From assembly GCA_018902385.1 (NCBI GenBank), contig JABSSW010000032.1, forward strand, positions 274,651 through 338,650: a stretch of DNA of 64,000 nucleotides. The letters are read 5' to 3'. The DNA is from Physcia stellaris. Lineage: Eukaryota; Ascomycota; Lecanoromycetes; Caliciales; Physciaceae. Numbering within the stretch: position 1 is the stretch's first letter; each line of letters starts with the position of its first letter. Below are positions 21,447 through 53,811 of this stretch, in pieces. The translations under genes were made by a program, and so were the position numbers. The notes beneath the pieces are model-generated. The model did no database searches. It was not told where the DNA came from and was given only the letters and a program-made list of their open reading frames with translations.

Positions 21447-21758
21447 GTGCAGAACGCTTGCAATTGCTTGGCACTCGTAGATCTTTTTTGCCCCGAGTTT
21501 GTCACCAAGATCTCATGTCAAACCTAACCCTGAAATGAAAAACTTCTGGCATTTGACGATGTCAAATTTTCAACTCGATCAACACGTGATGATTCGACAT
21601 TAAATTTACGATGTTATCAATGTATCGATCATATTATCGAACAAACGTGTTTTTATAATAAATCATAGTGTTGACGTCGAGTTACATCGATTGAAAATCT
21701 TGAATCTGTTGAAAAGAAAAAGATCTACGAGTGCCAAGCAATTGCAAGCGTTCTGCAC
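21447..21758. repeat. MITE-like element with perfect 42-bp terminal inverted repeats
   Basis: Positions 21447-21488 and 21717-21758 are exact inverted copies, starting GTGCAGAACGCTTGCAATTG. The 228-bp interior is AT-rich and non-coding. The motif AACGCTTGC followed by CTTGGCA is shared with the TIR of the element at 229-552, so both belong to one family or to related families. Perfect TIRs suggest a fairly recent insertion. Confidence 0.85.
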
Positions 21759-29544: not shown

Positions 29545-29546
29545 AT

Positions 29547-29582
29547 CCCCTCCGCATCCAATTAGTGAAATTTAGCGTGTTT
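29547..29582. repeat. left terminal inverted repeat of the long element
   Basis: 36 bp, exact inverse of 39292-39327. It keeps CC and CT dinucleotides that are lost in the element's interior. Confidence 0.9.
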
Positions 29583-31366
29583 ATTTCGTGATCTCTCCTC
29601 TTCACCTGCAATCACCATTTACTTCATCAATAATACGTCTATTCTAGTCATTGCGACGTCGTTTGAATCGTCTGAATCGAATTTATTACATCATATAAAC
29701 AACATGTCATTCGTTGAATCAACATTTGAGCTAATCATCGTTCAAAAAAAAAAAAAAAAAACGCGTCGATGCAAACGTTCTCATTTCGAAATCGAAAAAA
29801 CAACATTTCATTGTATTGAAACAAAAAAAAGTCATTCAAACGCGTGAATTTGATTATACATTTTTTATTACATTTATTTATCGATCATTTCAATTGAATC
29901 ACGTTTATATGACGTTTTGAAAATTCGTTTAATTGTTTTTGTTTTTTTTGCAATCGATATTCGATTTATTGTTTTATCACATCAATCAAACGATTTATAT
30001 CAAAAAAATCAATTGAAATGCATTCATTATGATGAAATTACGTCAATGAATTGTTAAACGCATTTTCATAATTCAACATTTTGTTGCAAACGCAACAATT
30101 CAATCATTTTGATTTCAAAATAATTTTCACAATTTATCATTCAATCGCGATCGATATCAAAACATTGAACGTTATTTGAACGTTGAATTTAATCAACATA
30201 TGTTATACAACAATGCATCATGATTTTGAAAAATCGAAATCGCTTTGAATGTTTTCAAAAATCGATTATTTTCGTTTATTAATTTTGAAAATCATTTTGC
30301 AATCGACGAATTAACAATCGAATTTCATGATCGTATAAATAACAAATTTCGTTTTTCACACAAATCAACAAAAAAAAAATTCGTTTTATACAATTTGATC
30401 AATGATAAAAACATTTTACACGACTTCATGATGATGAAATTTCGCGATAATTTCGAAAATCACAAAAAAAATATCACGATCAATATATTTTCAAAAACGA
30501 CTCGAAAACGCAAAAAAAACATTATTGAAATCATTGTTATGAAAATTCATTTTGCATTTACGAAAAAAGTAATATATATTTTTTGCGAACGAATTACACG
30601 CGATTTTCGTTATTAATATTTCGTTTGTTTTATCGACAATTTTTTCACGAATTTTCATTTCGTCAAAATTTTTTTGATTTTCAATGTCGATATTTGTGAC
30701 ATTGTACGAAACAACGCATCTGATATATTATTGAAATTAAAAAAAATAATTGTTGCAAACAAGTCACAATTGAATTTAAAACAATAAATACATCGAATTG
30801 TGAACGAATTGATCAATTGTTTCGTTTGAAAAAATTTCGAATGAAATCACGTGATTTCATTTGTTATTATTGCATATATTTTACAAACAAACGAACAAAC
30901 ATCACGAAAAATTCGATTCACGATCGATGCATTTTTTCGAAACGATTTCAATAAAATCGTCGTCAAACAATTCATTATTGCAATGCAATACAATTTTCAT
31001 ATGAATCATGTGAATCGTGCAAATCAATTTCGAAATGAATTGACGATATCACGATTCGAACAACGCAAATGAACGAAACGAATGATCGAATACATGATGA
31101 ATTCGATCAATATCAATGCATATATCGTTTGAAATTATCATCAATCACAAAAAAATTTCGATCATCGAAATCGACGTGTATTTATTCAAAAATTGATTGA
31201 TGAATTTTTACGAAATTCAAATATCATATATCAATCGTCAAAATGTATCAAATCGACGTATTGTAAATGAAATGATTGTTCGATCAATTTTCACACGAAA
31301 TTTCGAAAACGTCAAGCATTCAATTTCAAAAATGTCAATATACAATATCGTTCGAATCGTAAAACG

Positions 31367-31592
31367 TGTGAAATGTTATGCATTGATTGAATTAATACAT
31401 AATTACACGAGAATTTCTAAATGAGAAACAAATACATGAAAACTTGTAAAAACATATGTAGAAAATTAAATCGTTTGAATGCGTCAAGACGAATTCTGAT
31501 TTTAACATTCGATGTGATAAAATAAAAATGTTAATTTTAATGATTGATCAGATGTTGATTTCAAATGTTGAATTTGATGCACGTTCGTCACA
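31367..31592. repeat. LTR (3' LTR in the minus orientation)
   Basis: 226 bp, nearly identical to 38771-38996. The differences I see are mostly C/T or G/A pairs. Confidence 0.93.
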
Positions 31593-33404
31593 TTATTTTT
31601 CGTTTTTTTTCAGTTTCGTTTCGAAGCGATTAATTGATTTTTCTTTTCGAACGCATTGCGCGATGTAAATATGTCGTTAAATGACGTTGAATTGATTTGT
31701 CGTCGAGACAAAAAAATAAACGCGAAACGTCGCGAAATAAATTTCGTCAACGAAATAAATTCGTCGAGATTTTGAAAACATTCACATTATCATACTTTGA
31801 AATAAACAATTCGAACATGTTAATAAAATCGTCGTTACAATTTTTAATGCATTGAAATTTTCGAATGTGCGAAAGTCGATGTGTACATTGCATGCGTCAA
31901 AACGTGAAAACAATGAATATTTTGAAAAATGATCAATTCATACAATTCGTAAAAAGTAATTTCGACGAACATTAATAATTGATGATTCGATTTCGCGTAT
32001 CGACAAACATGAAAATTTTTGCAATATCAAATTGATATCATGAAACGAACAATTTGATCACGTCGATAAAATTTTTGTTATTATGATTAACACGTCGACG
32101 TTATCACATATAAAACAATTGATTCGTACAATGCATTCAACGAAATATGCATGTATTAGATTTTTTTGAAAAGCAAATATTTTGTACGAATTTTACAAAT
32201 AATTTCGCGTGTCATTAATAAACAATTGAGAATTTTGTTGACGAATTTGTAAATGTTCGAATTTTTTGACATTTTGTTGTTTATTCGTATCATTGCATGA
32301 TATTTTACATTATTATTCATTGTTCAATAAGATTTGACGACAATTTTTGAAAATGTTTTTAACACGATTCAATTTTTCATGCGACGTAAATTTTGACTGT
32401 AAATAACGCAAAATGAAAACGAAACGAATGACAAAAAAAAAAAAAAAAAAATCATTGACGTCAATTTGAAAATGAATTGTAACGAATTCGATGACAATTT
32501 TCTGATCGATTACAAACAATAAAATTCACGATTTAATTATTTCGCAAAACAAAATTTGTTGTTTTTGAATTAATTTCGTGAAAAACATCGACGATATTTT
32601 GAACATTTTGAAATTCATCGTCGTCGACATAATATCAAATGCGATCGTGAAAATTTCAATTCGATCATTTACAACGATATTGAAAACGATGATAATAATA
32701 TCGAAATTGCAATATGTCGTCGAATTTTCATTCGAATGTTTCATTTGCGATAACGAATTTCGAAAAATCGTTGTGTTGTTTTTTCAACGAATCATTGAAA
32801 TTTTTTTTTAACAATCAAAAATGAAAAACGAAATGAATGTGCATGTCATCGAGCAATTTCAATTCGTAAACAATGTTTCGTTTTTTGACAACGAAATATG
32901 AATTCAATTTTTTGTCATTCAATTTGTCAAATGAACGAACTGTTTTGATGTGACGACGATTTAATCATACATAATTTTTTGTCTCAAAATTGATCGAGTA
33001 ACGAAATTTGTTGATTCGAATCGTCATTTTTTGTTTAACGTCAACAACATTGATTTTGATTTATTCGATAATGCGATTCATTTTTTCGACAATAAATTCG
33101 TTTTGTTCGATCAATAAACGCTTTTTAATGATTTCGTAATTATTTAAATTCGAATCAAAAATCATTCGAAAATGATAACTTTTATTGATAAAAAACGAAA
33201 TGAAATTTGTGATTGCGAAAACGTCATTGTTGTTAACGAATTTCATGATGTCGATTCATTTAATTCAATCGTTTTGACGATAATTGCAATATAAACGTAA
33301 ACGAATTTCAATGTTTTGATTAATTCGTTCGATTTGATCATTCGTTTGAAATTGAAATGTCGTGAACAATTTACATTTGATTTTTAAACGTTTGCAAAAA
33401 TTTT

Positions 33405-33641
33405 TCAAACGCGATTCACAAATTGATCATCTCGATTCGAAACGATAAAAAAAAATAAATCATGCGTGCGAAATACGTAATGAAACAATATTTTGACGCA
33501 AATTTCGATTGTCAAATCGTCATTTTCGATCACACAAAAAACATAATGTCGTTTTTTGATTAATCGATCGATAATAATGCAAATAACGTTGTTTTTTTTT
33601 AATTTAAATAATTCGATTATGAAGTTTATCGAAATATTCAT
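33405..33641 (-). pseudogene. integrase core remnant
   Basis: NVICIIIDRLIKKRHYVFC followed by FRTHDLFFFIVSNRDDQF matches the integrase catalytic core pattern (NxIxVVVDRLTKxxHFIP ... HGLPxxIVSDRGxQF). Here IVSDRG reads IVSNRD. Sequence further downstream on the minus strand (33400-31600) is probably the rest of integrase but is not readable. Confidence 0.88.
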
Positions 33642-33881
33642 TTATCGCTGATTAGAAATTGACAATGATGTTAATAATTCATGACGATTATCGTGAAAAA
33701 TTTTAAAACGTTGACATTTGTGACAATTACGAATATAACGTTTGATAAATAATTGCATATTAAATCAATAATAATAACGTTTAATGAGTTTTTTAATGCG
33801 ATTCTTGTTCGAATGAGCACAAAAAAATTGATCGTGAACATCGCGAATTATTTCAATCATGAAATTTAAACGATTTGATAT

Positions 33882-34392
33882 TCATAAATTTTCGTTTTTG
33901 AAAAAAACGTCGTTTCGATTTGAACATTTCTGTAAATTTATTTTTTCGTTGATGATTTGCTTATCGATCAAAATTTGACGATAATTAATGCAATTTTTAT
34001 TTTTTCGATTGATTTGCATTATTCGTTCGTACAAATCGTTTTGAACGTCAATTGAACATAATTGCAATCGAAAAAGCGACAACAAAATTTGTTTTTTATA
34101 GAATTTTCGTTCGTCGTCATCGACAAAACGAAATTCAAACATTCGAATCAAAACGTTCGTTTTAACATTTTTGATTTCGAATTGATATTGAATTTTGATA
34201 TTGTAATCGATCAAAATTTTTGTTCAACGTATTTGACGAAAAATAAATTTTTTGTTTGTCATGAAAATTTTCAGATTTTTGTGATCGATGTAAATTTCGA
34301 CGAATTCGTCGATATTTTCGAATTTGAATTTTCAATGTTTCAAACATCGAATAATGATTAAAAATTTTTTGTCGTATATTTCGTAATTGCAT
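33882..34392 (-). pseudogene. RNase H and connection region remnant
   Basis: The frame at 33882-34214 (LIDYNIKIQYQFEIKNVKTN...LIRMFEF) matches the end of gypsy RNase H (DYDFxIxYxPGKxNxxADALSR), with changes expected from G-to-A mutation. It links reverse transcriptase to integrase. Confidence 0.75.
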
Positions 34393-34690
34393 TCGACAAA
34401 AATCATTTTTTTGTTGAAAAAAATCATCGAATGAAAAATTTTTTCGTTATCGTATTGCGACAGAATTTCATTCAAACATCAATTTGATGAATCAATTTTT
34501 AATATAATTTTACGATTACGATCGTAATGTCGAAATAGAAAAATTTCGATAATTTGTTTTTTCAATGTTTCGAACGTTTCATTGACGAAATCGATTCATT
34601 CGAAATTAATTTTTTTTTTGATCATTCGAGTCAAAAATTTGACGAACTTGAAAAATGCTTTGATGAAACGACGATAAAAATTGCAAAAAT

Positions 34691-35542
34691 TCACAAACGT
34701 TTGTATTTTTTTAATGCAAATTGAGCGAATTCAATTGACGATATTTTGAATTTTTTGAAATTCATACGTAAATTTTTTGTCGTTAATATGACGTTCAAAA
34801 ATGAAATTTTCGTTTGAAAAAATTCGCATTTCTTGATATCAATTTGAAATTCGATTTTTTTCAACTTTTGAAACATTTGTGTGAAATGTCGTTCATGTTT
34901 TTTTCGTGTTTTGTTGTAAATAAAAATATCGTTCAAATAAATTTGACAAAAATGATTAATGTATTCGAACAACAAATCGTTCATGTAATGTTATCAATTC
35001 GTCGAATCATTTGTTAATTCGAAAAATAATACATGATATTTGTAAATGTTCAGCGAGTATATAAAAATAGTCAATTTTTCGCTTTGTGAATTCATTCGAA
35101 ATTTATTGAAAATCGATATGATGTTCAATTTGAACAGAAATTTGCAATCTATAATTCGAACAAGAATTTTTTTAATCAATGATATAAAATATTCATTGCG
35201 TTTGATTATGACGTTCAATTTTCGATAATTCACACAAAAACGAAATTGTTCGTTCGATTTGACGACGAATAAAATGAACGATACGTACGATGTTTTGCTT
35301 GAATTGATAAATTTTTTTTGAAAATTTTCGTGAAAATACTTTTGAAAAATTTCGAATTTTTTTGACGATAAAAAATAAACTCGATTTCGAAACAATTGTT
35401 TCGATTTTTCGATCAATTCGATTTTGTGATCGTAAAATTTATGAAAAAATAATTTATCGATTTTTTTGAAATTGAACACGCTTTCGAATCGTTTAAAAAA
35501 GTCAAAAATTTTTCGTTTCAATTTTTCGACGATTGTTTTCAT
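34691..35542 (-). pseudogene. Ty3/gypsy reverse transcriptase remnant
   Basis: Conserved RT blocks are readable in two frames: KTSYVSFILFVVKSNEQFRF with CVNYRKLN, RIIDCKFLFKLNIISIFNKF, then FCQIYLNDIFIYN (catalytic YxDD changed to YLND) and KKCEFFQTKISFLN. The changed catalytic Asp and the frame break make it inactive. Confidence 0.92.
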
Positions 35543-36261
35543 GATTTTAAAAGTTTTTTTGAAATCGAAATCGAAATCAGATTTTGTTTTGATTAAATTT
35601 TTTTGACGTTGTCAATAATTTCATTTAGTTTTTTCATGATTAGCGAAAATGTTTTGATTTTTTTTTTTTTTTTTGATTTTGTCAGAAATTGATAAACAAC
35701 GACGTCGATAAAAACGACGTTCAAAAAAATATCAAAATCGAAATCTTGTTCGTCGTTTTCATTATTAGAAGTCGAAATTTTGAATCGACGATTAAATCGT
35801 CGAGCAAATTTTTTGATTAAATTCGATTTTCGAACAAAAATTTTCACGAATGTAAATTGTTGAGAATTTCGTATAATTTTAATTCGTCGTTTTTTTTTCG
35901 AAAATTTGACAAAAAAATATTTTTTATCAATTTTTTCAATAGCATATCGGAAATTAGAATTCAATATGTTTTTGAAAAAAAACTTTTTTTCATTTTCGAA
36001 ATTTTCGACGATAAAAAAAAAAAATTTAATTTTGAACACAGATGACGTCGATCGTTTTTGAATAATTTAATATTTTTGAAAATTCATTGATATCGAGAAT
36101 TTGTTTGACGATATTGATGAAAAAAAATATAATTTTTTAAACGAAATTGAACGTTCGTTTTTGATTTTAAAAATTTTGAATGTTTCGAAATGAAAATAGC
36201 GATCGAATTTGAAAATAATTTTATCGTTTTTCATGTCGAAAATGATTTCGTGAACGTTTAT

Positions 36262-36630
36262 TCAAAATTTATTCAATATCAACGAATGAATTTCGATTTT
36301 TGTTATGAACATGAAAATCGTGATTTCTGAATGATTTTGCACGATAAATGTAAAATAAATGACATGAATAATGAATTTAATTTCGCGATTATCGAATTCA
36401 TTGACGAATTTCGATCGTGATAAAATCACAAAAATTATTTGAAATGTTTCACAAATTAATTGCGCAATTTTTTCATCAATGAAAACGTATTCAATGACAT
36501 TTGTATTCATTAATGTTTGCAAATTATGTTCGTATTTATCGAAAATTAATGTACATTTAATTACTAAAGAATTGTTTTGAAATTTATTGAACGTGTTGAA
36601 TGTTTTTGACATTGTTGAAATAAACAACAT
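36262..36630 (-). pseudogene. retroviral-type aspartic protease remnant
   Basis: The block EYVFIDEKIAQLICETFQI and the following IYFTFIVQNHSEITIFMFIT fit the gypsy protease pattern after the active site. The active-site triplet itself appears as NTN, consistent with D-to-N and G-to-N changes from G-to-A mutation. Inactive. Confidence 0.65.
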
Positions 36631-36814
36631 TTTCGTCGCGATTTTGAAAAAATTTAAACGTTTTTCGACTTATGAGTTGAAAAAATCTCGTTGTTAATAT
36701 CATTAAAATAATTATCAAGACGAAATTGAATCGATTTCGATTTGAAAATTCATTAAAAATTCAGTCATTTCGTTGATTGTCAGAATGTTTTTTTTGTTTA
36801 ATTTTTTTGAACAA

Positions 36815-37921
36815 TCAAATATCGATGATTTTAAAAAGAAAACAATTTCGTATCAGATGATTGAAATTTTCACAACGATAACAATTTTTATCGATGTCAT
36901 TTTTATCATAAAGAATTTTCATGATTATTTGATCGACGACGAACATGATTTTTTTGACGTTGAACATGTTATCACGAATTACGATTTTGACAATTGATGT
37001 TTTGAAAATAATTCGTGAAATAATTTTAAATGTCGAATTTTCGAAACGTGTGATTTCAAAAAAATGTAATTTTTGATTCATTTTTTCAATCAATTTTTTT
37101 AAGTTTTCGATTGTTTCAAATCGATCGTTATTAACAATGACTCGTTGAAGTTGAAAAATGAATTTTTCGCGAAATTCATCGATCAAATTCTGTTTTGAAT
37201 AATAAAACAATTGACTGAACAACATCAAAAATTCGAAAAAAAATTTCGAAAAGCGTTGATTGATACGCATGATAAAAGTTTTGAATTTATTGCGTACGTT
37301 TCGTTTTTTGTTTTTTTTAACATAAATCAAAATCAGAATATCAAAAATCATTTGAAAAGTTTTGAAATAAACAATGTCGATTTTACGTCGAGCGAAAAAA
37401 TGTTCGCGAATTTTGTTTTCGATTCAATTGATGAATGTCGTTGTTTTGATATATTCGTCGACGAAATAATCGACGTTAACAATGAATTTGTTTTTGATCA
37501 ATTGTTTTCAAATTTCGTAAAAAAGATTTGAAATGTTTTCATTGAATTTGAAAAAATTCGACATTTTGACATTTTTATTCTTTTTATCGATAAACAGTGT
37601 GAGACTGAAAATTGACGTTGTTGTGATTTTTAAAAAATTTATTTCGTTTTGCAATTTTATATTACGATTGATCAATTTAGCATTTTCGATTTTGAATTTG
37701 ATGTTATTTTGAAAAATGAACGTTGTTGTAAAATTTATTCGAAAAATATTCATTTCGTCACGCAACGTTTGATTATTTTTTTTGAATTTTTCATTTTCGA
37801 TGTTGAATTTGAATTTATCGACATTGAGTTGATTTATATTTCTATTTTTTCGTCGAAATAAATTGACGATTTCTCGATTGTGTTTTTTGTTTTTTTCGAT
37901 TTTCTCGAAATTTTTGATCAA
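36815..37921 (-). pseudogene. gag remnant with CCHC zinc knuckle
   Basis: Two frames, 37921-37508 and 37351-36815, cover a Lys/Asn-rich Gag-like protein. The second ends with CYRCENFNHLIRNC, a C-x2-C-x4-H-x4-C knuckle, the nucleocapsid signature; its zinc ligands have survived the mutation. The rest is too altered for closer assignment. Confidence 0.8.
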
Positions 37922-38770
37922 CGAATTATAATCTTTTACGTGAACGTTTCAATTTCAAACAATTTGAATTTTCGCGTCACGATCGATTTTCAGTTAATTC
38001 AGCATTTGCAATATCGTGAAAAAATTTTTGCGAATTTATTGTTGAAGTTGTTCGACGATATAAATGTTTATCGCATGTTTCGTATCGTTCGAATTGTAAT
38101 TTGCGTTTTTCGAAAAAACGTAATTTAAAAAAATGTTTTTTATCAATTTGAATGAATCGACGATAATTTGATCATTTTTCGAAAAAATTGTTAATTGTTG
38201 AATTTGATTAAAAGTTTTGCGTTTAAATTTAAAAAAAATGATCACAAAAAAAATGTTGATAAAAATAAACATGATTGAAATTTTAATGCAAAAAAAAATT
38301 TCGTTTCAATGAATTCGACAATAAGTATTCAAAAATAATCGTGTTTTAGAAATTTGATCGTGAAAAACAACGAAAGCAATTTTAAATTAATGTTATTTTC
38401 GATGAAATAATTCGTGTTGATTTATGATGAATAATTTTTGATAAAACGATAAATGTTGAATTTCGATTTATCGTATAAATGTTTGTTGATTGATAATTTG
38501 ACGATTATTTTTGCAATTCGTTTTTCGATATATTCGATTTGATACATCGATTTTCGCGATAAACACTTTTTTGAAAATTTTGTACAACATTAAAACGAAT
38601 TAAATTTTTTGTTTTTTTTTTGTTGATTCGTTGAATAGAATCGAGTCTTTTTGTTCAATCTGATTTTGAAAATGACGTTTTAAATTTTCGTGATTGATTT
38701 TGAGATTTTGTTTATTGAATAAATTGTCGTATTTCGAACAATCTGAAAAAAATGAATGATTTAAAAATAA

Positions 38771-38996
38771 TGTGAAATGTCATGCATTGATTGAATTAAT
38801 ATATAATTACACGAGAATTTTTAAATGAAAAGCAAATACATGAAAATCTGTAAAAATATATGTAAAAAATTAAATCGTTTGAATGCGTCAAGACGAATTT
38901 TGATTTTAACATTCGATGTGATAAAATAAAAATGTTAATTTTAGTGACTGATCAAATGTTGATTTCAGATGTTGAATTCGATGCACGTTCGTCACA
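38771..38996. repeat. LTR (5' LTR in the minus orientation)
   Basis: 226 bp, same length as the other LTR. Followed by the AAACG target duplication and then by resumed DNA-transposon sequence (TTTGATTATTGTATGACATG), which also occurs in the short copy at about 53219. Confidence 0.93.
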
Positions 38997-39291
38997 AAAC
39001 GTTTGATTATTGTATGACATGTAAAATGAATTTATGCGTGTCATTTGAATGTTTCAAAATTTATCATGAATCGAAAAAAATGTCATACGAATGTTTTGAT
39101 CAATAGAAAAATTTAAAAACGTTTCGAAACATTTGAAAATGATTTAATGATTTCAAACGAATTTCGAATGTAATCATATTTCAATTATTGAATGTTTATA
39201 TATTATCGAATTTCTTCATTGAACTATACACATATACACGTAAATTTGATGAAATAATAATGATTGAAATGAGAAAAAAAGAATCGCGTGA

Positions 39292-39327
39292 AAACACGCT
39301 AAATTTCACTAATTGGATGCGGAGGGG
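39292..39327. repeat. right terminal inverted repeat of the long element
   Basis: Exact inverse of 29547-29582; outer end GATGCGGAGGGG followed by AT. Confidence 0.9.
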
Positions 39328-39770
39328 ATGTGCTTGAAAAACGCGCTAGAACGCGTCACGATCCAAGGACAACCACACGCGCGTCCATTTCGTCACATGA
39401 CTTTGAGAAAGTTCCAAGATCCCTGGTATACTCTCGTGTCCTATCGTTGATCCTTCATGGTTACGAAATGGGGCGGTGATTGTGTCCATGGGACAAGAAC
39501 ATAGTGTTGACTCATGGGGCCATATGGCAAACCCGGCTATGGTAGCGCGAGAGGACCTCGACGGGGTGTTTTTGATGGACGGTTCAACTCCGAGCGCGCG
39601 TGCAAAGTAGTGCTGGGAAGATATTCAAGACGGTCGCGATATACCAATCCTGTATCAGCAACAAGTGTTACGGGAAACCTTGAACCATCGAAACTTGCCA
39701 GAAGAACAGAACACTGCACCGAGCACAAGATTCTCCGATCTCCTACCCCCCTTCGGCATCCACATCCCCC

Positions 39771-41000: not shown

Positions 41001-41700
41001 TGAAAGATGACAGTCCCCGCTCAGTCATCCCCAGTCTCTAGGCGGTTTTGCTTGTCCGACGTCCCATCGCGGGAGGATGTGAGATCCTGGGAACCTTGAA
41101 TCGTGGTCTCATATTTTGCTCCGTGTTACTTTTTTACAAGAAATATTCCATATAAAGAATACGCAACTACGTAAATGAAAACAAACGATCATTACAGTAG
41201 CCTAGGCATTGTTCGTTACCTTACGAATACGGGTGATAGAAAATTGGAAATATAAGAGAGGATGCATGCGAACTTCCATCCCAGCGTATCCCATGGTCTG
41301 GTGATAAGTGGTGCTAATTTTTAGGATACACCGACAGATCTACGATTACTCGGCTTGGGTGCGAAATCAGAAGATGATGTTGTTTACATGTCATTTCGAT
41401 ACGGTCTTCGTGACGTTTTCGTATGCTTTGTGCCAAACACGGGTAAGAGTGTTATCATATTGAGTGTATCGGTGGCGACGCATGGGAGGCAAGATAGCAC
41501 CACACCAGACCATGGGATACCTCCCCCTTTATGAGTCATAACCACATAATCCAAGCAGCATTTGGAAAAGCATCTCGTCGCCCTACTTAGCGAACACCAC
41601 ATGAAAGTGAAGAGAAAGAGAGACCTATCTCAATTTTATGAGGCTTTAAATCTAGTCCAATCTAGTCATGATCCGCTTTTCGATGAGCATCTGACATACA
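41001..41700. other. intergenic region
   Basis: Contains copy 1 of the 95-bp repeat. It has no gene and no sign of the missing 5' part of the amine oxidase. Confidence 0.55.
41421..41515. repeat. 95-bp dispersed repeat, copy 1
   Basis: Aligns without gaps to 45885-45979, at about 75-80% identity by eye, with blocks CCAAACACGGGTA, TTATCATATT and CCAGACCATGG. Most differences are transitions. Probably a small remnant of a mobile element. Confidence 0.7.
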
Positions 41701-45884: not shown

Positions 45885-45979
45885 CATACGCTTTGTACCA
45901 AACACGGGTACGCGTCTTATCATATTACATTTATTAATGGCGATGATAGGAGGCACGATCGCGCCGCGCCAGACCATGG
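45885..45979. repeat. 95-bp dispersed repeat, copy 2
   Basis: Gap-free relative of 41421-41515 in the same orientation, 4.5 kb away. The two copies flank the S28 and DUF3669 genes. Confidence 0.7.
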
Positions 45980-51956: not shown

Positions 51957-51958
51957 AT

Positions 51959-51994
51959 CCCCTCCGCATCCAATTAGTGAAATTTAGCGTGTTT
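51959..51994. repeat. left terminal inverted repeat of the short copy
   Basis: 36 bp identical to the left TIR of the long copy. Confidence 0.9.
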
Positions 51995-52111
51995 ATTTCG
52001 TGATCTCCCCCCAACTTGCAATCACGATTACTCCATCAATAATACGTCTATTCTAGCCATTGCGACGTCGTTTGAATCGTTTGAATCGAGTCTATTACAT
52101 TTTAGAACAAT

Positions 52112-53324
52112 ATGTCATTTGCTGAATCAACATTTGAGCTAGTCATCGTTCAAAAAGAGAAGAAAACACGCGTCGATGCAAACGTTTTCATTTCGAAATC
52201 GAAAAAACGACGTTTCATTGTATTGAAGCAAAAAAAAGTCATTCAAACATTTGAATTTGATTATACATTTTTTATTACATTTATTCATCGATCATTTGAA
52301 TTGCATCACGTTTATATGACGTTTTGAAAATTCGTTCAATTGTTTTTGTTTTTTTTACAGTCGATATTCGATTTATTGTTTCATCACATCAATCAAACGA
52401 TTTATATTTTCGAAATCAACTGAAATGCATTCATTATGATGAAATTACGTCAATGAATTGCTATACGCATTTCAATGATTCAGAATTTTGCAAAAAACGC
52501 AACAATTCAATCATTTTGATTTCAAAAAAATTTTCACAATTCATCATTCAGTCGCGATCGATATCAAATCATAAAACGTCATTTAAACGTTGAATTTAAT
52601 CAATATATGTCATACAACAATGCATCATGATTTTGAAAAATCGAGATCGCTTTGAATGTTTTCGAAAATCGACTATTTTTGTTTATCAATTTTGAAAATC
52701 ATTTTGCAATCGACGAATCAGCAATCGAATTTCATGATCGTATGAAAAACAAATTTCGTTTTACACACAAATCAGCGTTTCGTTTTATACGTTTTGATCA
52801 ATGATAGAGACATTTTACATGATTTCATGTTGTGAAAATTTCGCGATGATTTCGAAATTCACTATACAATTTTCATATGAATCATGTGAATCGTGCAAAT
52901 CAATTTCGAAATGAATTGACGATATCACGATTCGAACAAGTCAAATGAACGAAACGAATTAGTGAATTGATCAATACGAACGCATACATCGTATGAAATC
53001 ATCATCAGTCAACGAAAGATTTCAGTCATCGAAATCGACGTGTATTTATTCAAAAATTGATTGAAAAGTTTTTACGAAATTCAGATATCATACATCAGTC
53101 GTCAAAGTGTATCAAATCAATCTATTGTGAATGAAGTGATTGTTCGATCAATGATCACACGAAATCTCGAAAACGTCAAGCACGATGTCAACATACAACA
53201 TCGTTCGAGCAGCAGAACGTTTGATTATTGTATGACATGTAAAATGAGTTTATTCGTGTCACATGGATGTTTCAAGAAATATCATGAATCGAAGAAAGTG
53301 CAATACGAATGTTTTGATCAATAG
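52112..53324 (+). pseudogene. piggyBac-like transposase remnant, internally deleted
   Basis: Starts MSFAESTFELVIVQKEKKTR and ends with RTFDYCMTCKMSLFVSHGCF followed by KKYHESKK. This Cys/His cluster (CxxC...C...H) resembles the C-terminal zinc-binding region of piggyBac-type transposases. The central DDE region is shortened by the 530-bp deletion, and several frame breaks occur. Inactive. Confidence 0.6.
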
Positions 53325-53507
53325 TGGGTCTGTAGACGTTTGAAGACATTTGAAAGTGTTTTGATGATCTCAAATGAATTTCGAATGTAATCATATTTCA
53401 ATTATTGAATGTTTATATACTATCGAATTTCTTCACTGAATTATACACATATACACGTAAATTTGGTGAAGTAATGGTGGTTGGAGTTGGGGGAGAGGAT
53501 CGCGTAG

Positions 53508-53543
53508 AAACACGCTAAATTTCACAAATTGGATGCGGAGGGG
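53508..53543. repeat. right terminal inverted repeat of the short copy
   Basis: Inverse of 51959-51994 with one mismatch (AAATT for TAATT). Confidence 0.9.
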
Positions 53544-53811
53544 ATTGCCAAGCAAGATAGGGCTGATTTTATAAGCACCTATCTATTGGCCCGCTTATTT
53601 GTCCGAGCGAGCTACCGGGCCGATGAATCGCCCGAGAGAGTGGTGGAGCTAAGGATGAGGCAGTGTTTCATCGTCCAGGCAAAAGACCCATTTCACCTTC
53701 TGCTCACGACTCTCCAAACACATCAGTGACCGCGCGTCCAGTTCTTTGATTGACCACACCTGACCTTCTATCGTTTTGCAATCTACATTCCGAAAGCACC
53801 AGGCCGACAAG

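Follow-up and report, generated by a model that had tools for sequence, protein, structure and literature searches.

A 64,000-nucleotide stretch of the genome of Physcia stellaris (Physciaceae, Caliciales, Lecanoromycetes), hereafter the window, contains a composite of two nested transposable elements that has lost nearly all of its CpC and most of its CpT dinucleotides on both strands. Based on the comparison with related repeats elsewhere in the genome, P. stellaris very probably possesses a repeat-directed C-to-T defence that resembles repeat-induced point mutation (RIP) and has the context order CpC > CpT >> CpA > CpG. The window corresponds to positions 274651-338650 of contig C32 in the 43.97 Mb, 147-contig assembly, and coordinates given without a contig are positions in the window. 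The data show the target, context, strands, limits and tempo of the mutation.

Sequence context of the mutations

The original prediction had placed a hypermutation with a preference for CpT and CpC, instead of CpA, at 29650-39230. Within these limits CC is absent and GG occurs once, CT and AG are rare (56 and 89 occurrences; observed/expected ratios (o/e) of 0.13 and 0.19), and the o/e values of CA, CG and TA are 1.27, 3.61 and 0.41, respectively. This retention of CpA and CpG, together with a low TpA content, is the reverse of classical RIP. The counts given earlier for 33001-33300 were exact on recounting (CpG 21, CpA 14, CpT 2, and no CpC, ApG or GpG). In the nested retrotransposon (31367-38996), CC and GG together occur once, the average over 300 shuffles being 217 (minimum 185), and CT and AG together 130 times as compared to a mean of 715 (minimum 667); TGG is found on neither strand of this element. 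The pattern fills the entire feature, the true limits of which are 29545-39329.

The outer element, an inverted-repeat DNA transposon, recurs elsewhere in the genome, a first search having listed at least 41 matches, some of which are fragments of one copy. Twenty loci outside the window were taken (L013-L032). Locus L032, with a GC content of 0.456 and near-normal dinucleotides, served as natural reference, and the two copies in the window plus L013-L030 were tabulated against it, L031 being left out. The other copies, including those in the window, have a GC content of 0.235-0.325. Over the 20 tabulated copies, the loss of C amounted to 2957/3342 for CpC (88%), 2675/3507 for CpT (76%), 404/5329 for CpA (8%) and 150/4147 for CpG (4%). 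In the interiors of the copies the corresponding numbers were 2433/2556, 2424/2884, 375/4284 and 128/3258, with 279/15766 changes of A>G or T>C and 448/28974 transversions. A second family, which encodes a reverse transcriptase and is unrelated to the inverted-repeat transposon, repeats the same context: relative to its unmutated reference L033, copies L039-L042 lost 1515/1555 CpC (97%), 1359/1619 CpT (84%), 110/1555 CpA (7%) and 57/1454 CpG (4%). The order of contexts in P. stellaris repeats is CpC > CpT >> CpA > CpG. The predicted C-to-T process at CpY (C followed by a pyrimidine) is borne out by the multi-copy comparison in two unrelated families and by the survey of AT-rich DNA described below, and the preference against the unmutated L032 is much sharper than was claimed. 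Neither of the two outcomes that would have spoken against the prediction was observed: most of the changes lie outside CpA, and L032 is not short of CpC.

The prediction had relied on the two window copies, with 51957-53545 as the less mutated reference. That copy is a poor reference because it is itself mutated (o/e 0.36 for CC/GG and 0.41 for CT/AG; losses against L032 of CpC 99/144, CpT 88/138, CpA 14/233 and CpG 14/175), and a comparison of these two copies alone is misleading for the same reason. At the 96 sites with C in 51957-53545 and T in the long copy, the contexts are CpT 45, CpC 16, CpA 27 and CpG 8, so that it was an overstatement to speak of only a handful of CA-to-TA changes.

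Composition was surveyed in 528 windows of 500 bp across the 64-kb window and the 20 loci, which is a non-random sample since the loci were picked via the transposon. Below 35% GC lie 203 of these survey windows, 178 of which have o/e values under 0.6 for both CT/AG and CC/GG; in 23 of the other 25 the CC/GG value is at most 0.38. CpC falls first: survey windows of 34-37% GC have o/e values of 0.22 for CC/GG and 0.77 for CT/AG, and those of 25-28% GC values of 0.00 and 0.17. A TA o/e above 0.8 was found in none of the 203 AT-rich survey windows, and none of the 528 passed the CpA-based RIP index test (TpA/ApT > 1.1, (CpA+TpG)/(ApC+GpT) < 0.75, composite > 0). The cut-offs agree with those in PMC6714961, which applies 1000-bp windows.

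These data bear on the idea that ordinary CpA-type RIP acted on an element already poor in CpC and CpT. The CpA type is the common form of RIP, and RIP has been reported with CpA-based indices in two other Lecanoromycetes, G. flavorubescens and Cl. metacorallifera (PMC7882544). However, the loss of CpA is a minor one in both families, and L032 has o/e values of 0.94 for CC/GG and a slightly low 0.79 for CT/AG; an ancestral composition bias of the element was rejected, L032 and L033 both being of near-normal composition. Moreover, the TA o/e in mutated copies (0.40-0.60) is below that in L032 (0.70), whereas CpA-type RIP would raise TA, and the index test was passed nowhere. The tabulations against L032 and L033 thus refute this explanation, to which we attach next to no probability. 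It may be mentioned separately that RIPCAL found much CpT change in Neurospora Tad1 (PMC2621366), and that aligned copies may give too high a count for CpT when no further change at CpA is possible.

The 5' neighbour merely shifts the rate, and it is the 3' neighbour that decides: in ten copies the mutated fraction of CpT was 0.61 after G and 0.78-0.81 after the other bases, and that of CpC 0.92-0.96. An APOBEC/AID-type cytidine deaminase acting on the repeats or on their reverse-transcription products would likewise produce a heavy C-to-T load on both strands, and PF00383 deaminase domains are present in the genome (8 matches). The contexts of APOBEC/AID enzymes are, however, set by the 5' neighbour, and the inverted-repeat transposon is mutated about as heavily as the retroelement family. 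PF08210 had no match in the genome, an absence that carries little weight since its controls also matched nowhere. Taken together, we consider the action of such a deaminase very unlikely.

The context also leaves its mark on reading frames. In 150 scored RVT_1 matches (from 527 candidates) we counted 250 TGA, 33 TAA and 3 TAG stops, 10 matches being without a stop, and 10 DDE_1 matches contained 44 TGA and 3 TAA, one being without a stop. Since a change of TGG to TGA is a change of GpG to GpA, and thereby of CpC to TpC on the other strand, the excess of TGA fits a process directed at CpC, whereas CpA-type RIP would give TAA and TAG. The scarcity of TAG in itself proves little, as the process converts TAG to TAA. 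In practical terms, repeats in such genomes lose their reading frames mainly via TGA stops.

Tempo, strands and spatial limits

Four copies (L016, L021, L025 and L028) each carry 250-295 interior CpY changes and only 0-4 transversions, which indicates that the mutation came as a burst and not as decay; in these copies it is out of step with neutral divergence. The interior of L025 differs from L032 at 137/146 CpC, 113/167 CpT, 3/249 CpA and 0/188 CpG sites, with 1/1646 transversions and 2/895 A/T transitions, and that of L028 at 146/149 CpC and 125/165 CpT sites, with 0/1641 transversions and 6 A/T transitions in about 890. An alternative would be slow spontaneous deamination, in which repeats are methylated at CpY, as in methylation induced premeiotically (MIP), and 5-methylcytosine decays to T over time. 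Confinement to repeats and to one context would also be expected in that case, and methyltransferases are encoded. Against it stands that L025 and L028 lost 94-98% of their interior CpC and 68-76% of their CpT with so few transversions (1 and 0 in about 1,640 sites) and A/T transitions. When all copies are taken together, the rate at CpC exceeds that of A>G/T>C about 170-fold (3.03 vs 0.018), while the mutation excess of 5-methylcytosine at CpG in animals is about tenfold. Slow deamination is therefore an unlikely source of the changes.

Both strands are mutated alike, the per-copy values in the 20 copies being 0.65-0.97 for the C-strand and 0.63-0.95 for the G-strand. We also considered that nanopore base calling might have reported T at methylated CpY in repeats, and that polishing left these errors in place. 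Polishing within repeats is difficult, which would favour such an artefact. Nevertheless, neither CpC nor CpT is its own reverse complement, and reads of the opposite strand should still give G and a consensus with 95% T would be hard to reach; moreover, the copies differ in the extent of mutation and in the mutated sites (mean phi 0.22 in ten copies). The assembly in the genome paper combines nanopore and Illumina data at about 30x each (46.57 Mb in 184 scaffolds; PMC7513301). A sequencing artefact is, in our view, highly improbable.

The limits of the mutation coincide with those of the repeats. Of 24 flanks in 12 copies, 8 that are themselves AT-rich were dropped; with flanks that are mutated repeats mixed in, values of 0.17-0.19 had been obtained. 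The 16 clean flanks have a CpY density per dinucleotide of 0.236-0.260 at 0-300 bp as compared to 0.245 at more than 1 kb, and hence no loss at any distance. Within the repeats, the outer 50 bp are weakly mutated (over copies, 24/162 CpY cells at the left end and 8/82 at the right end). From the left end inwards, the mutated fraction in successive 50-bp bins rises from 0.15 to 0.47, 0.58 and 0.70, beyond 200 bp it is mostly 0.8-1.0, and the last bin has 0.10. This end effect could be due to poor pairing at the ends or to selection on ends that are needed for transposition. Poor pairing is favoured because the gradient extends beyond the 95-bp inverted repeat and because some copies have mutated tips.

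Candidate methyltransferases and proposed mechanism

A PF00145 profile search of the genome gave four matches, representing three genes, which we designate C3, C5 and C6 after their contigs. The C3 protein contains a methylase domain, DUF7893 and a sub-threshold match to BAH; in length and make-up it is DIM-2-like, judged by the architecture of DIM-2. The C5 protein (P0241; deposited length 932 aa) is identical, over the 359 residues searched, to a protein deposited from P. stellaris. It groups with the long RIDs from Heterodermia, Teloschistes, Usnea and their relatives, and by sequence it is a canonical RID. C6 (L009, C6:791557-792528) encodes a protein of 513 aa in a gene model with two short introns. 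It groups apart from these, in a RID-like clade that comprises 16 of the 65 rows used (Shimodaira-Hasegawa-like approximate likelihood ratio test (SH-aLRT) 100), together with Heterodermia and unnamed sequences, Heterodermia being the only named close relative among 120 hits listed. This clade is placed closer to the DmtA group of Eurotiomycetes (95), although in a quick tree the deep forks of which are weak. C5 and C6 both retain the PPCQ motif. The target-recognition stretch reads LIA[TC] in 4 of 5 C6-type rows and IIAC in the fifth, versus [TC][IVM]T[TC] in 12 of 13 other RIDs and TILA in Tuber; likewise, 4 of 5 C6-type rows have PDG where most other RIDs have PSG. Records of Teloschistes, Caloplaca and Fulgogasparrea also include a long and a short RID, the short ones falling in a clade other than that of C6.

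In the repeats of P. stellaris, C is converted to T on both strands, at CpC first and subsequently at CpT. The changes come in bursts that hardly touch CpA, CpG or any other base; they stop sharply where the repeat ends and are sparse in its outermost 50-200 bp. In the mechanism that we propose, repeats would be detected through their homology ahead of meiosis, and a DNA methyltransferase of the RID class would presumably carry out or start the deamination. P. stellaris is fertile, with plentiful apothecia, and the culture was grown from ascospores (PMC7513301). More speculatively, the divergent C6 protein might provide the CpY context, under the hypothesis that its altered target-recognition stretch sets the mutation context. 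That the C6 type represents a second RID lineage of Physciaceae, a CpY-specific repeat mutator and thus a RIP enzyme of reversed specificity beside the canonical RID, is a tentative idea to which we give somewhat less than an even chance.

When these data are set against RIP, C:G to T:A transitions are found concentrated in repeats, on both strands and in a rapid burst, in a genome that encodes RID-class methyltransferases (C5 among the long RIDs, C6 in the RID-like clade). The process works like RIP, but we do not claim the strict name for it, because neither the CpA preference nor the RIP index signal was found.

Several observations weigh against a repeat-directed defence of this kind. A preference for CpA, as known from RIP, is lacking, and sex, homology and RID are linked to the process by analogy. 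CpA is not fully immune, since 21-25% of it is lost in the most mutated copies (50/238 in L013, 56/222 in L020); it may be either a weak secondary target or a trace of later decay. The CpC:CpT rate ratio varies between copies from 0.8 to 3.4, which leaves room for two activities, and strand clustering along the copy was seen in none of ten copies (r 0.003-0.032). The TGA excess is ambiguous if taken alone, as TGA also arises by CpG-type mutation of CGA (PMC4014442); GpG is favoured as its source because CpG is retained. Finally, some long duplications escape mutation. Two copies of a Ty3-type pol region with long open frames, L034 (C5:1166521-1166997) and L035 (C12:60312-60788), share 95% identity across 3.5 kb and show no hypermutation, and the 999-aa frame of L034 contains reverse transcriptase, RNase H and an integrase zinc-binding domain. 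This pair, which is about 5% diverged with C/T differences across all contexts (CpC 38, CpT 36, CpA 26, CpG 22), would satisfy the Neurospora threshold of 80% identity over 400 bp (PMC3017866).

Comparison with known systems and features of the window

As in the RID-dependent RIP of Neurospora crassa, in which DIM-2 also takes part, C-to-T changes in P. stellaris are dense in repeats and affect both strands, unique DNA is spared, and homologues of RID and DIM-2 are encoded. The order of contexts differs, being CpA>CpT>CpG>CpC in Neurospora (quoted in PMC5496416). In Trichoderma reesei, RIP with a changed preference was seen in crosses, but there CpA and CpG rank above CpT and CpT above CpC (PMC5496416). 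For Botrytis, Sclerotinia and Magnaporthe, Amselem et al. (2015, PMC4352252) described a CpT component and linked it to a protein of the RID class. In their Table 2, however, CpT always occurs with CpA, and CpC is not mentioned in the main text (PMC4352252), whereas in P. stellaris the foremost target is CpC and CpA is spared. Changes of C to T that do not follow the CpA rule have also been described in Microbotryum and Rhizoctonia solani AG8 (PMC4014442, PMC4352252), CpG-type hypermutation being known in basidiomycetes (PMC4352252). These two cases are described as CpG- or TpCpG-biased, and in AG8 the mutation extends over genes and repeats alike (PMC4014442, PMC4352252), while CpG is the most protected context in P. 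stellaris and genes are spared. Among the four contexts, the raw spacing in AG8 is shortest for CpC changes, with 214 bp in the genome and 301 bp in repeats (PMC4014442), and this is the nearest precedent in the open-licence literature searched, in which we did not find a CpC-led, CpA-sparing RIP.

Within the Lecanoromycetes, Cladonia rangiformis shows a strong C-to-T loss in transposable elements (TEs) with sharp TE limits, and has RID and DIM-2 homologues; CpA and the word 'dinucleotide' are absent from the text of that paper (PMC12542154). The GC content of TEs is mostly 10-20% in Cl. rangiformis (PMC12542154) as compared to mostly 22-31% in P. stellaris, a difference that is expected if CpR (C followed by a purine) is spared. 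The main text of the P. stellaris genome paper nowhere uses the term 'repeat-induced' (PMC7513301). According to a 2025 kingdom-wide screen, RIP-like defences 'share a preference for CpA' (PMC12543289), to which P. stellaris is a strong counterexample. Since the mutation is invisible to standard RIP indices, cases of RIP may have been missed in lichens and in other fungi or organisms. Encoding a DIM-2-like protein alongside both a canonical and a divergent RID, and with an outcome that spares CpR, P. stellaris would also offer a natural experiment on the context of RIP.

Features of the hypermutated composite and of the second transposon copy in the window.
Feature	Position	Strand	Basis
Hypermutated composite: DNA transposon with inverted repeats, presumed non-autonomous, interrupted by LTR retrotransposon	29545-39329	.	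Self-BLAST; intact copies elsewhere
Left arm of inverted-repeat transposon	29545-31366	.	Alignment to 20 loci; tabulated against L032
Left terminal inverted repeat, still CC- and CT-rich, weakly mutated end	29545-29642	+	Inverted match to 39234-39329; sequence
Target-site duplication, 5 bp, left copy	31362-31366	+	Read in sequence; recurs at 38997-39001
Nested LTR retrotransposon, 7.63 kb	31367-38996	.	Self-BLAST; ends read in sequence
LTR, 226 bp, TG...CA	31367-31592	.	Self-BLAST; sequence
LTR, 226 bp, TG...CA	38771-38996	.	Self-BLAST; sequence
Target-site duplication, 5 bp, right copy	38997-39001	+	Sequence
Right arm of inverted-repeat transposon	38997-39329	.	Self-BLAST; alignment to copies
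Right terminal inverted repeat	39234-39329	-	Self-BLAST
Deletion derivative of inverted-repeat transposon, same ends, moderately mutated	51957-53545	.	Self-BLAST; tabulation against L032

Self-BLAST of the composite revealed an outer pair of inverted repeats, each about 95 bp long, and inner direct repeats of 226 bp. The region is a DNA transposon of about 2.15 kb with a long terminal repeat (LTR) retrotransposon nested inside; the latter is recognised by the TG start and CA end of the inner pair and by the 5-bp duplication on either side. The outer pair was rejected as LTRs, since it is inverted and the inner repeats are the LTRs. Uninterrupted transposon copies of 2.14 kb occur elsewhere in the genome (for example L014, L018 and L032). 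No target-site duplication of this transposon was seen by eye in about 15 copies with both ends visible, and its intact ends read AT...AT. The two LTRs of the nested element differ at 15 sites, all of them C/T or A/G (CpT 10, CpA 3, CpG 1, undecided 1). Two open pieces on its minus strand (34994-35542 and 36815-37351), scanned separately, matched no Pfam family. The retrotransposon further contains a tandem pair of about 105 bp with 72% identity (37606-37707 and 37710-37818). Elsewhere in the window, a perfect 42-bp inverted repeat (21447-21488 and 21717-21758, about 230 bp apart) lies in normal DNA, and a 94-bp direct repeat with 79% identity (41422-41515 and 45887-45979) is located beyond the mutated DNA.

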